Below the pieces are notes generated by a model. The model did no database searches. It saw nothing but the letters and a program-made list of their open reading frames with translations, and was not told the origin of the DNA. A DNA stretch of 44,970 nt, taken from NCBI GenBank assembly GCA_018060955.1, contig JAGOVC010000005.1, forward strand, positions 1 to 44,970, given 5' to 3'. The position numbers were made by a program, and so were the translations under genes. The DNA is from Candidatus Woesebacteria bacterium (GTDB taxonomy: Bacteria; Patescibacteriota; Microgenomatia; UBA1400; UBA12028). Below, piece by piece: positions 31,944 to 35,804 of the stretch; the first letter of the stretch is position 1; each line of letters starts with the position of its first letter.

Positions 31944-32846
31944 TTACCATTCAAACAATGGTTTTGTAACGGCGGTTGAAGACTGATACCCCCATTCGAT
32001 AAGTTCTGTGGTCTCTTTGAAGCGATTGGGACTGTTTAACACCGCAGAATACAGTGTCCTGCCGTTCCGGGTTGTTGAGACCACTAAACATTCCCCTGAC
32101 TCTTCTGTCCATCCTGTTTTAATCCCATCAATTCCAGGTAAAACTCCAAGTAACTCATTCGTTGTACGTAAGGGATGGATCTTTGTTCCATCAACACTAT
32201 AGACGGTAAGTTGTTGTGTTTTTACTAACGATGCGAATTCAGGATTTTTCATTGCCTCTTTTGAGAGAATCACCAAATCTCGAACAGTCGTTACGTGTCC
32301 TGGTTCAGAATAGCCAATGGGGTTGGTGTAAAACGTGTTGACGAGTCCAAGTTTTTGGGCCATTACATTCATTTCTTTAATAAATGCCGTCTGTCCGCCG
32401 GGATATTGTGCTGCAAGGACTAACGCAGCATCATTGGCAGACTGGATTAACAACCCCGCCAAAAGATCTTTGATCGTGATTTGCTCTCCGGAAACCAATC
32501 CCATCTGGCTTCCATCCGCACGAGGCGATCCACTCACGGATGCAACAGATTCCAAGGGAAAATGATTGAGTACAACCAGCGCTGTCATGATCTTCGTTGT
32601 TGATGCAGGAAAGAGTCGGGTATCTGAATCTTTTGAAACCAAGACCTCTCCCGATTGCTCATCGAGTAATAGATAGCTCTTGGCTTGCAGTAGTGGCGGC
32701 GAGCTCGAAGCTTCTGTCGGCACTGTCAAGGTTAATGGGAGTGGCTCGGAGAGCTTAGTAACAATCGGTAATTTGGGAAAAGCTGGCTCATAGAGTTGAT
32801 GATGCCAGGATAAAACGAGGGAAAGAAAAACGGAAAGCCAGTGCAT
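31944..32846 (-). CDS. dacA: D-alanyl-D-alanine carboxypeptidase (PBP5/DacA-type)
   Basis: A 300-residue serine-type peptidase of the S11 family, removing the terminal D-Ala from peptidoglycan stem peptides. From the ATG at 32846 it has a signal sequence (MHWLSVFLSLVLSW), a polar linker, then the catalytic SxxK at S82-K85 (PASTTKIM), SxN (QSANDAALVL) and KTG (GIDGIKTGWTEESGECLV). It ends soon after the peptidase domain without the C-terminal beta domain or amphipathic anchor of E. coli PBP5, so it is probably secreted or held by an uncleaved signal. TACAAT lies exactly 6 nt before the ATG, so it may have its own promoter although it also follows the FemAB-like gene by 36 bp. Confidence 0.93.
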   Translation of the reverse strand: MHWLSVFLSLVLSWHHQLYEPAFPKLPIVTKLSEPLPLTLTVPTEASSSPPLLQAKSYLLLDEQSGEVLVSKDSDTRLFPASTTKIMTALVVLNHFPLESVASVSGSPRADGSQMGLVSGEQITIKDLLAGLLIQSANDAALVLAAQYPGGQTAFIKEMNVMAQKLGLVNTFYTNPIGYSEPGHVTTVRDLVILSKEAMKNPEFASLVKTQQLTVYSVDGTKIHPLRTTNELLGVLPGIDGIKTGWTEESGECLVVSTTRNGRTLYSAVLNSPNRFKETTELIEWGYQSSTAVTKPLFEW

Positions 32847-32882
32847 ACTGGTATTGTAGCGAATCAAGAGCAAAAAGCTTAG

Positions 32883-33827
32883 TTATAGAATCCAGCGCGA
32901 GAATGTCGGCGGATAATAGACTGAGACCGGATTGAACCTCGATTTGAATTCGCTAAACCCTTTCCACCTTGGAGTAACTTGCGGATACCGTTCATCGTAC
33001 ACGCTGCAAAAATCAAAGATGTCTGCGCCGCGTTCTTTGCTGATTGCAATTGCATGATAGGTTAATCCACTCGGTATCTGATATTTAAATCCCGGCTGGA
33101 TCGTGCACGTATAGTAATAATACCCTACTCCAGAATGGATCAGAACAATCATCGCTCCGACCAAGTCATCATTCACTCGCGCTCTTATCAGATATCCATT
33201 TCCGGGAAAGACCTCAAAGATCGAAGTCAGGAAATGTTGGGAAAATCCCAATATCTTTCGCTCCTTTGACCATCGTTTATGTAACGAAAAAAATTCTGTA
33301 CAGTCACTCTCCTCTAGTTTTGAAAACTCTGTCGTGGTGTAGGTAACATCCGCTTTGAGTGCTTGCTTAATGTTATAGCGAGTTTTCTGGGGCAGGCTTA
33401 AGAGAAATTCTTGCATTGGCGCTTGAACATCCAAAATCATCGTCTTGCTGTGCGCGTAGTGTTCATTGCTCACCCGCAGTCCTGCTTCTTGCAGTTTTTG
33501 GGCACAGCGTGCCAAATCCGATTGTTCCAACAAATTTAACTGGAGTTTCTTCCCTGTAAGTGGCACCAAGGTAATTGCGGCCCCAGGTTCCACGATCAAA
33601 TGCACCATGGATAACTTTTTTCGAAGTGCAGTAAGTTTTGGTAGGTCGATGACTTTGGGACGCTGAATTTTGGCCAATGAAACAGGACCTAGTTGACGCA
33701 CAGACAGATAACTTCCGGAAACAAAAATGCTCGACCAGCCAATCTTTTCCATTAGCTTCTTATACCCAAACGACTGGTGTAAATCTTCTCTCAGACAAAA
33801 ACGATCGAGTAGATCTGTTGATTCCAT
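32883..33827 (-). CDS. FemAB/FemX-like aminoacyltransferase (peptidoglycan bridge formation, GNAT fold)
   Basis: A 314-residue protein with the double-GNAT Fem fold. Recognisable blocks are YLSVRQLGPVSLAKI, NIKQALKADVTY (the R-x-N-I-K/R-x-A block after LSLPQKTRY), FFSLHKRWSKERKI, YLIRARVNDDLVGAMIVLI, YYYYTCTIQPGFKYQIPSGLTYHAI and the C-terminal DFCSVYDE...RWKGFSEFKSRF. Fem enzymes transfer amino acids from aminoacyl-tRNA to peptidoglycan precursors; related FemAB-like proteins act on exopolysaccharides. It starts 5 nt after the aspS stop and precedes dacA, so it belongs to an aspS-femX-dacA cluster downstream of a T-box. Confidence 0.82.
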   Translation of the reverse strand: MESTDLLDRFCLREDLHQSFGYKKLMEKIGWSSIFVSGSYLSVRQLGPVSLAKIQRPKVIDLPKLTALRKKLSMVHLIVEPGAAITLVPLTGKKLQLNLLEQSDLARCAQKLQEAGLRVSNEHYAHSKTMILDVQAPMQEFLLSLPQKTRYNIKQALKADVTYTTTEFSKLEESDCTEFFSLHKRWSKERKILGFSQHFLTSIFEVFPGNGYLIRARVNDDLVGAMIVLIHSGVGYYYYTCTIQPGFKYQIPSGLTYHAIAISKERGADIFDFCSVYDERYPQVTPRWKGFSEFKSRFNPVSVYYPPTFSRWIL

Positions 33828-33832
33828 AGAAA

Positions 33833-35233
33833 TTAGATTGTCGATACACTAAGTCCTAATTCTTTGAGCTGTTCCGCACTGACTGACGCTGGTGCATCCA
33901 TAATGGAGGTTCGACCAGTTGATGACATTGGAAATGGAATTGCTTCCTTTAAGGCTTGTTGATTGGACAACATCATCACGTGGCGATCAAGTCCTAGCGC
34001 AATTCCACCATGGGGAGGTGCCCCAAAGGAAAACGCTTCTAGCATGTGCCCGATACTCGCGGTTGTCTCCTCAGGCGAATATCCCATGATCTTATAGGTT
34101 GCTTCCAACAGTTCCGGACGATGGGCACGAATGCTTCCCCCACCTGCTTCATACCCATTACAGACCAAATCGTACTGGGTCGTGAGAATTTGATCGATAT
34201 TGGTTCCGCCAAGGTGCCATTCCATGTGTTCCGGTAAAGGAGAGCTAAAAGGATTATGGGTAAATGTCCAGCCACTTTTCCCATCGCGCACTTCTGCAGC
34301 ATCACCTTTATCTACCTTTTTGAAAAATGGGAAGTTAATCACCCATGCAAAGGCAAGGACGCCATCTTTCTTCTCTTGATCAGAGCGCAAATCAAATTTG
34401 TCTGCCCCGAATTGCTTGATCGCCTGCTCATAGGTAAAGATTGGAAATGTCGTATCTTTTAGCTTTCCACCCACCTGTCCTACCGCATCCTTAACGACGG
34501 ACTCCACGGTTTCCATGACATCTTCACGACTCGCAAAACTCATTTCCAAATCTAGCTGAGTAAACTCAAACCCACGGTCCGCTCGCAAATCTTCATCTCG
34601 AAAGCAGCGTGCAAATTGAAAATAGCGTTCAATTCCCCCTACCATTAGGAGCTGCTTGTACTGTTGTGGACTCTGTGGAAGCGCATAGAATTTTCCTGGT
34701 TGAAAACGACTTGGGACCAAAAAGTCTCGAGCACCTTCCATCGTCGCTTTCGAGAGAATGGGTGTCTCCACTTCACAGAAATCTTTTCCCATTAAAGCTT
34801 GTCGTAGCGCATGGAAATATTCGGAGCGTAGTCGTAATGTCGTACTCATCCGTTGTCGCCGGATATCTAAATAGCGATAGCGCAATCGGTGTTCCTCATT
34901 TATATCTAATCCATCACCTTGTACATGCAACGGGAGCTCACTTGCTTTATTGAGCACTTCATACGACTGTACTTCTATCTCAATTTTCCCTGTAGGGGTA
35001 TTGGGATTGATGTACTTTTCTCCGCGCTCCTTTACTAGCCCTGTCAAAGAAATGACAGACTCTGTACTCAGCTCACCCATCATTTGATAGCCAACACATT
35101 GAATCATTCCCGTGCGGTCACGCAGATCAATAAAGGTTAGCTTTCCATGATCACGCTTTGTATCAACCCATCCCATGAGGGTCACAACCTGACCCACCTG
35201 TACGCTAGCAGCTTGTATGAGCGTTCGTTCCAT
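33833..35233 (-). CDS. aspS: Aspartyl-tRNA synthetase, bacterial type without GAD insertion
   Basis: Class II synthetase of 466 residues. N-terminal OB fold (TLMGWVDTKRDHGKLTFIDLRD), then the catalytic core: RYRYLDIRRQ (motif 1 region), LPQSPQQYKQLLMVGG, FARCFRDEDLRADR (motif 2) and GIALGLDRHVMM (motif 3). Bacterial AspRS is usually near 590 residues because of a GAD domain inserted in the core. Here FGADKFDLRSDQEKK runs straight into AFAWVINFPFF, so this insertion is missing, although core motifs are bacterial rather than archaeal. AAGGAG 6 nt before the ATG supports the start. A T-box leader lies upstream. Confidence 0.97.
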   Translation of the reverse strand: MERTLIQAASVQVGQVVTLMGWVDTKRDHGKLTFIDLRDRTGMIQCVGYQMMGELSTESVISLTGLVKERGEKYINPNTPTGKIEIEVQSYEVLNKASELPLHVQGDGLDINEEHRLRYRYLDIRRQRMSTTLRLRSEYFHALRQALMGKDFCEVETPILSKATMEGARDFLVPSRFQPGKFYALPQSPQQYKQLLMVGGIERYFQFARCFRDEDLRADRGFEFTQLDLEMSFASREDVMETVESVVKDAVGQVGGKLKDTTFPIFTYEQAIKQFGADKFDLRSDQEKKDGVLAFAWVINFPFFKKVDKGDAAEVRDGKSGWTFTHNPFSSPLPEHMEWHLGGTNIDQILTTQYDLVCNGYEAGGGSIRAHRPELLEATYKIMGYSPEETTASIGHMLEAFSFGAPPHGGIALGLDRHVMMLSNQQALKEAIPFPMSSTGRTSIMDAPASVSAEQLKELGLSVSTI

Positions 35234-35259
35234 AGTGTCTCCTTTACGATACTACGTAT

Positions 35260-35390
35260 AAAAAAAGACACCTCTCTACCTTGGTAATCCAAGGTCTTTG
35301 CAGATTCTGCAAAAGAGGTGCCACCTTTGTGTTTCTTATTCCAGCGATTTCGGGCTTACCCGTTGCTATTCACTAAGCGTCACCTTAGCT
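35260..35390 (-). promoter_or_regulatory. T-box riboswitch leader of aspS, compact/ultrashort Stem I
   Basis: Read on the minus strand: a hairpin CTAAG/CTTAG (35384-35388 with 35373-35377) shows GAC, an Asp codon, in its 6-nt loop (35379-35381). A second hairpin CGGG/CCCG follows (35351-35362). The T-box bulge UGGCACC (35317-35323) is flanked by helix A1 AAGG/CCUU (35324-35327, 35291-35294) and helix A2 UCUUUUGCAG/CUGCAAAGA. Its UGGC complements the GCCA end expected for tRNA-Asp. The competing terminator pairs GGCACCTCT (35314-35322) with AGAGGTGTC (35267-35275), then a run of seven U. An extended -10 (TGC-TATGTT, 35394-35402) places the RNA 5' end right at the first hairpin, so Stem I is terminal. 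Uncharged tRNA-Asp should promote readthrough. Confidence 0.82.
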
Positions 35391-35439
35391 CCAAACATAG
35401 CAATAAAACGTATCTTTATTGTAAACAAAGATCGTAGGA

Positions 35440-35468
35440 TTGACAATGGGCCACTGTTTTCCTATAAT
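35440..35468 (+). promoter_or_regulatory. Consensus sigma70-type promoter
   Basis: TTGACA (35440-35445) and TATAAT (35463-35468) with a 17-bp spacer: both hexamers match the consensus perfectly, and it is the strongest promoter I see in the window. Transcription should start near 35475, about 6 nt before the ATG of the leader ORF at 35481. It is back to back with the aspS T-box promoter (-10 at 35394-35399). Confidence 0.85.
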
Positions 35469-35480
35469 TCCCCTTGTTCT

Positions 35481-35552
35481 ATGAAGAACCAACACGTCAT
35501 TACCATTAACACTCTCACTGTCCTTCGCGGACTGGGGGTTTGTGTGGCGTAA
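35481..35552 (+). CDS. Putative 23-residue leader peptide of an attenuator
   Basis: A 23-codon ORF beginning ATG AAG AAC and ending GTG GCG TAA, placed 12 nt after the TATAAT of a consensus promoter. The peptide is rich in Thr, Ile, Leu and Val in its middle (VITINTLTVL) and ends RGLGVCVA. Its last codons encode the 5' arm of an antiterminator hairpin (35534-35545). The placement is that of a translated attenuator leader: efficient translation to the stop would cover this arm. There is no Shine-Dalgarno, so initiation would be leaderless or near-leaderless. No known leader peptide is recognised. Confidence 0.5.
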   Translation: MKNQHVITINTLTVLRGLGVCVA

Positions 35553-35606
35553 TGATGTAACATTATTTAAAACACAACACCCCCGATTAACACCCGGGGG
35601 TTTTTT
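35534..35606 (+). terminator. Attenuator: alternative antiterminator and Rho-independent terminator
   Basis: Terminator: ACCCCCG (35579-35585) pairs with CGGGGGT (35595-35601) around a 9-nt loop, followed by six T (35601-35606). Antiterminator: GGGGGTTTGTGT (35534-35545) pairs with ACACAACACCCCC (35572-35584) along its full length with one bulged C, enclosing a small TAATG/CATTA hairpin. The two structures share the CCCCC strand and exclude each other. The antiterminator 5' arm overlaps the last codons of the leader ORF. Confidence 0.7.
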
Positions 35607-35624
35607 GTTGTGAGAAAGGAAGAT

Positions 35625-35804
35625 ATGGAAAATTTAACTCCATATGCCAAACAAAATGAAGCTTGGATTCAAGCTGCTCGAGTAAGTGCGAAAACAGGTG
35701 AAATGCCAACAGTTCTAGAGATTGATGGGAGTACTTTATTCCGAAAGGTAACTGAAAATAATTCAGAGAGCATTTGGTATGTTCAAAAAGGCAATCGCCA
35801 ATAG
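35625..35804 (+). CDS. Small hypothetical protein behind the attenuator
   Basis: A 59-residue soluble protein that I do not recognise. The ATG at 35625 has a strong AAAGGAAG Shine-Dalgarno 3 nt upstream; an in-frame GTG at 35610 is less likely. The sequence shows a helical N-terminal half (YAKQNEAWIQAARVSAKTGE) and a short beta-like C-terminal half. It is followed 8 bp later by a second small gene with its own AGGAG, so the two are an operon controlled by the promoter at 35440 and the attenuator. Confidence 0.7.
   Translation: MENLTPYAKQNEAWIQAARVSAKTGEMPTVLEIDGSTLFRKVTENNSESIWYVQKGNRQ

Follow-up and report, generated by a model that had tools for sequence, protein, structure and literature searches.

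The window analysed here is a 44,970-nt stretch of DNA from Candidatus Woesebacteria (JAGOVC010000005.1, positions 1 to 44,970). The genome assembly has 90 contigs totalling 1.05 Mb, and the window is its contig 13. The genome is that of a member of the Patescibacteria (the candidate phyla radiation, CPR). Our subject is the leader of the aspS gene, which encodes aspartate--tRNA ligase; leader and gene both lie on the minus strand. Our analysis indicates that this leader is very probably a minimal, transcription-attenuating T-box riboswitch for tRNA-Asp, with the response to the tRNA being a prediction from sequence. All the T-box parts listed in a first-pass annotation of this DNA are present on the minus strand: A1 and A2 helices flanking a UGGCACC bulge, a competing terminator with seven U, and a GAC codon in a 6-nt loop. 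Judged by its specifier, bulge and switch, the element is a T-box, yet it lies outside all four described classes, because it has neither a distal Stem I nor a Stem II S-turn.

Specifier codons and downstream genes

Related leaders were collected in two ways. A pattern joining the Stem IIA hairpin to the T-box gave 14 matches, spread over 12 of the 138 related genomes searched, and a reversed-pattern control gave 0. With a covariance model, R1, built on the IIA/F-box/T-box core of these matches, 48 of 380 Patescibacteria genomes gave 65 sites, and additional ones came from 65 of 374 genomes belonging to the same class; weak R1 matches are probably false in part (L150, L162). By their NCBIfam names, the genes downstream of R1 sites include aspS, serS, ileS, valS, argS, alaS, tyrS, proS and lysS, and a few sites precede amino-acid biosynthesis genes (serB, a PspA-like phosphatase gene and an aspartate aminotransferase gene).

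A specifier in the apical loop is supported by the agreement between loop codon and downstream gene. Hairpins were chosen by a fixed rule, with no choice by eye, and the loop codon ending in C was compared with the gene. Codon and gene agree in 55 of 72 leaders of the first set; shuffling the labels 5000 times gave 18.5 matches on average and at most 31, and reversed loops gave 10. In a second set of 34 leaders, for which genes were labelled by protein similarity, there are 28 matches (shuffle mean 11.1, maximum 21). In both sets, the downstream gene can hence be predicted from the loop codon, which upholds the Asp-specific apical-loop specifier of the first-pass annotation. A curated set comprises 64 loci whose loops were picked by eye: all but one have C as the third base of the codon (63 of 64), and in 60 a purine follows the codon; the permutation tests are independent of that pick, and all these counts ignore kinship among loci. 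A GA soon after the upper helix was seen in 46 of 64 loci (background rate 32%). In a strand-swapping test of the lower helix, the strand behind the GA paired with the one ahead of Stem I over at least 3 bp in 39 of 64 loci, compared with 17.7 when the two strands came from different loci (maximum 27 in 1000 trials). A MAFFT alignment of the compact Stem I regions (A3) was discarded: unequal bulge lengths misaligned the 5ʹ lower strand, the L090 row was a hand-shortened sequence, and covariation was not counted on it.

The genome's own tRNA is consistent with the specifier. Its tRNA-Asp has the anticodon GUC, and the acceptor stem end, GGAGC-G, gives the discriminator G73. The variable base of the bulge is C, complementary to G73, so the earlier statement that UGGC fits a tRNA-Asp with G73 applies to this organism's own tRNA. 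Among curated leaders in which this base can be read, those for Asp, Asn and Ser have C in 31 of 33 cases, and the rest have U in 27 of 29. In the ileS T-boxes L084, L205 and L131, C or A stands at the bulge position expected to pair with A73 of tRNA-Ile. Five aspS leaders (L078, L122, L113, L149 and L158) carry AAC (Asn) in the apical loop instead of GAC. This suggests that expression of the aspartyl-tRNA synthetase (AspRS) tracks tRNA-Asn charging there, as for a non-discriminating AspRS. AAC also occurs in several aspS leaders that count as unmatched in the codon-gene comparison, which would fit an AspRS that additionally charges tRNA-Asn.

Could the leader be a plain terminator ahead of aspS that resembles a T-box by chance? 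The bare GTGGNACC motif (the T-box octamer) occurs 99 times in this genome and 99 times in the reversed control. However, the extended pattern does not stand alone: the IIA core is conserved, codon and gene agree, and the tRNA matches. Together these speak against chance, which the permutation tests refute; we assign this explanation virtually no probability. Together, the sequence data support the presence of apical-loop transcriptional T-boxes in many Patescibacteria genomes, for Asp, Asn, Ser, Ile, Val, Arg, Ala, Tyr and Pro. The proposal of a transcriptional, Asp-specific T-box in a CPR-like genome is thus well supported, but the element is not an isolated case; what sets the window copy apart is that it lacks Stem II as well.

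Architecture and proposed mechanism of the aspS leader

All features described here are on the minus strand. The ultrashort Stem I spans 41 nt (35363..35403; fold -11.4 kcal/mol, z -2.1) and has no elbow-docking distal part. Its 7-bp lower helix, UUGCUAU/AUAGCAA (35403-35397 with 35369-35363), is separated by a GUUUG bulge from a tandem GA/GA motif (35391-35390 and 35371-35370). This motif, recognized from sequence only, is K-turn-like, with a predicted 5-nt bulge where a K-turn has 3. The upper helix, GCUAAG/CUUAGU (35389-35384 with 35377-35372), closes the 6-nt loop GUGACG, in which the codon-gene match across loci and the genome's tRNA-Asp(GUC) identify GAC (35379..35381) as the Asp specifier. 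Stem I is followed with a spacing of 0 nt by the Stem IIA hairpin: the lower helix ends at 35363, IIA starts at 35362, and there is no Stem II and no S-turn. The IIA hairpin, CGGG-UAAG-CCCG (CGGGUAAGCCCG), and the F-box-like CCCGAAAUCGC (together 35344..35362) are near-invariant among relatives, served as the basis of model R1, and may form a IIA/B pseudoknot. In alignment A2, a purine-rich linker, UGGAAUAAGAAACACA (35328..35343), stands where Stem III would be.

The antiterminator (35291..35327), defined by sequence and folding energies, consists of the A1 helix (AAGG 35327-35324 with CCUU 35294-35291), the 7-nt bulge (35323-35317) and the A2 helix (UCUUUUGCAG/CUGCAAAGA, 35316-35295). The intrinsic terminator (35260..35322) pairs an arm from 35322 with one at 35277-35267, with GGCACCUCUU.. 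and AGAGAGGUGUC at its base and two hairpins enclosed, and is followed by the U7 run (35266-35260). The two structures are mutually exclusive, and the terminator sequesters the T-box bulge. The terminator domain folds at -28.8 kcal/mol and the antiterminator at -8.6 to -10.1 kcal/mol, a difference of ~19 kcal/mol in favor of the terminator. The whole leader RNA folds at -49.3 kcal/mol, compared with -35.5 ± 3.8 for shuffled sequences (z -3.6), and 0 of 200 shuffles were equally stable.

Translational T-boxes with a short apical-loop Stem I are described in PMC10482949 and PMC7583486. This raises the alternative that structure hides the ribosome binding site of aspS, as in actinobacterial ileS T-boxes. 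However, the ribosome binding site, AAAGGAG (35239..35245), is located beyond the terminator, and therefore indicates transcriptional rather than translational control. The U7 run behind the terminator stem points the same way, and so do the relatives: 100 of 118 leaders (~85%) have a terminator-like stem and T run behind the T-box, compared with 6 of 117 control stretches. We regard translational control as highly improbable.

A consensus scan of the minus strand of 35200-35700 found a sole sigma-70-like site, with TTGTCA (35446-35441) and TACAAT (35423-35418) separated by 17 nt (35418..35446; 10 of 12 matches). From this promoter, RNA polymerase would start at about 35411, ~8 nt ahead of Stem I. 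The extended -10 element previously proposed, TGC-TATGTT, is really the 5ʹ strand of the Stem I lower helix (35403-35397), and TTGTCA-17-TACAAT is the better promoter. The start is therefore probably further upstream than right at the hairpin, where it had been placed; even from there, a distal Stem I would not fit, as had been argued. Because the promoter is further upstream than first proposed, Stem I retains its lower helix and the K-turn-like GA/GA motif. L089, which belongs to the same family, has TTGTCA-17-TACACT at a nearly equal distance from Stem I. It also shares the architecture of the window leader, with a codon-to-IIA distance of 16 nt and an equally placed TGA and promoter, and its 7-bp lower helix differs from that of the window by compensatory changes (pairing read by hand).

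The GUGACG hairpin could instead be a shortened Stem II, with the true Stem I and another specifier located upstream. Indeed, there is an inverted repeat at ~35410-35437, the loop context GGUGACGC is like the Stem II loop of L096 (GGUGAUAA), and a short Stem II hairpin whose loop is GGUAACAA-like is found in many relatives. However, the upstream repeat holds the -10 hexamer TACAAT and its loop is without an Asp codon. Moreover, the equivalent hairpin loops of L089 and L090, both of the same family (UUGACAC and CCGACAC), are of the Stem I type, as are the GA/GA flanks and the presence of a lower helix. We consider a shortened Stem II to be quite improbable.

We propose that the leader works as a tRNA-sensing attenuator. 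The apical-loop GAC would pair with the GUC anticodon of tRNA-Asp, a step supported by the covariation of codon and gene. If the leader follows the T-box mechanism, the 3ʹ G73-CCA end of uncharged tRNA would pair with UGGC and hold the antiterminator, so that aspS and the later genes are transcribed. With aminoacylated tRNA, the stronger terminator would form and take up the bulge. Recognition would probably depend on the codon (two G-C pairs), the K-turn and IIA/F-box hub, and the contact with the acceptor end.

Stem II, codon strength and known T-box classes

PMC10482949 distinguishes four T-box classes by the architecture of Stems I and II, and describes tRNA binding as augmented by a distal Stem I motif, a Stem II S-turn, or both. 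The aspS leader shares with Class III (Nocardia farcinica and Mycobacterium tuberculosis ileS; PMC10482949, PMC7583486) a short Stem I with a K-turn, putative in the leader, and no elbow-binding distal part, a specifier in a 5-6 nt apical loop, and the IIA/F-box element. In contrast, Class III needs Stem II and is mostly translational, whereas the aspS leader has no Stem II, appears transcriptional, and is Asp-specific. With Class II (Bacillus subtilis glyQS) it has in common transcriptional control, the absence of Stem II and a GC-rich specifier, but in glyQS Stem I is long and has the elbow-binding motif, the specifier sits in an internal loop, and the linker is flexible, while the window element has an ultrashort Stem I and keeps the IIA hairpin. 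Class I (Bacillus subtilis tyrS; RF00230) shares the UGGNACC bulge, the antiterminator/terminator switch and the purine after the specifier; unlike Class I, the aspS leader lacks a long Stem I and Stem II, and is missed by RF00230. Other Patescibacteria T-boxes (e.g. L129 ileS and L128 argS) have the same apical-loop specifier, IIA/F-box core and terminator, but most of them have retained Stem II, either S-turn-like or as a short hairpin, and the window copy has neither.

The presence of Stem II tracks codon strength. S-turn-like Stem II, scored by a crude text rule that ignores kinship among loci, is present in 25 of 26 leaders with a one-G/C specifier (AUC, AAC or UAC) and absent from 25 of 38 leaders with a specifier of at least two G/C (Fisher p 3e-7). 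Valine GUC leaders, which retain Stem II, are an exception. The trend runs in the same direction as the published view of glyQS, whose ability to dispense with Stem II is attributed to its GC-rich codon in PMC7583486. Four leaders (the window, L089, L094 and L097) have no Stem II at all; their codon-to-IIA distance is 16-17 nt, they represent two families, and each has GAC ahead of an aspartyl-tRNA synthetase gene. Many Ser and Asp T-boxes (L108, L206, L211, L222, L223, L228, L233 and others) have, in place of the S-turn Stem II, a short hairpin just before IIA, with a loop of a recurring GGUAACAA-like type; this is possibly another means of supporting the codon-anticodon helix. The Stem II hairpins GGUGAUAA and GGUAGCAA of L004/L096 and L005/L086 were considered as Stem I and rejected; the Stem I loops UUGACAA and GUGACG sit upstream.

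Several observations weigh against a functional T-box. The search with Rfam RF00230 that the first-pass annotation had suggested as a check gave no match to the leader even at E 10 (gathering threshold 93 bits), and at the gathering threshold the model found 0 of 20 related loci tested. Other Rfam sub-threshold matches (Thr_leader and most others) were on the opposite strand. Stem II is described as required with a short Stem I (PMC10482949), and a device without both supports could therefore be weak or degenerate. Clear absence of Stem II is confined to the four loci in two families. In addition, several Ser and Asp leaders of the second set have U in the bulge and would need a G-U wobble; the discriminator match therefore looks looser in that set. 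A decayed T-box, in which the switch was kept and tRNA selection lost, would act as a constitutive attenuator, and both affinity devices known from the same source (PMC10482949), Stem II and distal Stem I, are indeed gone. However, the specifier, G73 match, helices and switch are intact, and the architecture recurs in three further genomes and two families. We consider decay unlikely.

On balance, we favor the interpretation that the aspS leader represents a fifth T-box architecture, one that functions without distal Stem I or Stem II S-turn because its GC-rich codon, K-turn and IIA/F-box hub are enough. The leader would then belong to a Patescibacteria-wide set of transcriptional apical-loop T-boxes, missed by standard models, whose retention or loss of Stem II depends on how strongly codon and anticodon pair. 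An element with neither support would rank among the smallest tRNA-reading riboswitches, and would make the affinity share of each part testable; the association of codon strength with Stem II is a natural experiment on these contributions. Our data also suggest that Patescibacteria control many aminoacyl-tRNA synthetases by tRNA charge, and that the current Rfam model overlooks the elements responsible. To our knowledge, gene regulation in Patescibacteria is almost unstudied, and we found no report of T-boxes in CPR in the open-licence literature.

Neighboring genes and other leaders

The putatively regulated gene, aspS (33833..35233, minus strand), encodes a 466 aa protein that matches NF001750 (571 bits) and TIGR00459 (496 bits), each above its cut-off, and PF00152; its nearest relatives are Patescibacteria sequences (top identity 71%). 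It is followed on the same strand by genes for a GNAT/FemAB-like protein (32883..33827; PF13480) and a D-Ala-D-Ala carboxypeptidase (31944..32873; PF00768), with gaps of 5 and 9 nt. The shared strand and short gaps suggest that both genes are probably co-transcribed with aspS. FemAB enzymes spend aminoacyl-tRNA on building cell-wall bridges. Therefore, by analogy, tRNA-Asp charge may also govern wall synthesis, through the FemAB-like gene behind aspS.

The same genome contains other T-box leaders. Those of ileS (L129, loop CUAUCCA) and argS (L128, AGUCGCGAC) are readable as a short Stem I with an apical specifier. By eye, the leaders of proS (L002; loop CACCCAA, codon CCC) and glyS (L003; UUGGCAA, GGC) can be read likewise. 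L001 (1501-1817) is a canonical-looking T-box with a long Stem I that includes AGAGA and GGUUGGUGAAAGC motifs. On this reading of L001, long and ultrashort T-box forms would coexist in one genome.

A second leader lies next to the aspS T-box in the window and is divergent from it (35440-35608, plus strand). It has a perfect TTGACA-17-TATAAT promoter and a 23-codon open reading frame (ORF), MKNQHVITINTLTVLRGLGVCVA, rich in Ile, Thr, Val and Leu, followed by alternative hairpins, the last a strong terminator. No relative of the ORF after this leader turned up in 137 related genomes, and Pfam gave no match to it. The leader gives a sub-threshold match to Rfam Thr_leader (E 0.012) and a fold z of -3.9, and from its sequence it looks like a leader-peptide attenuator.
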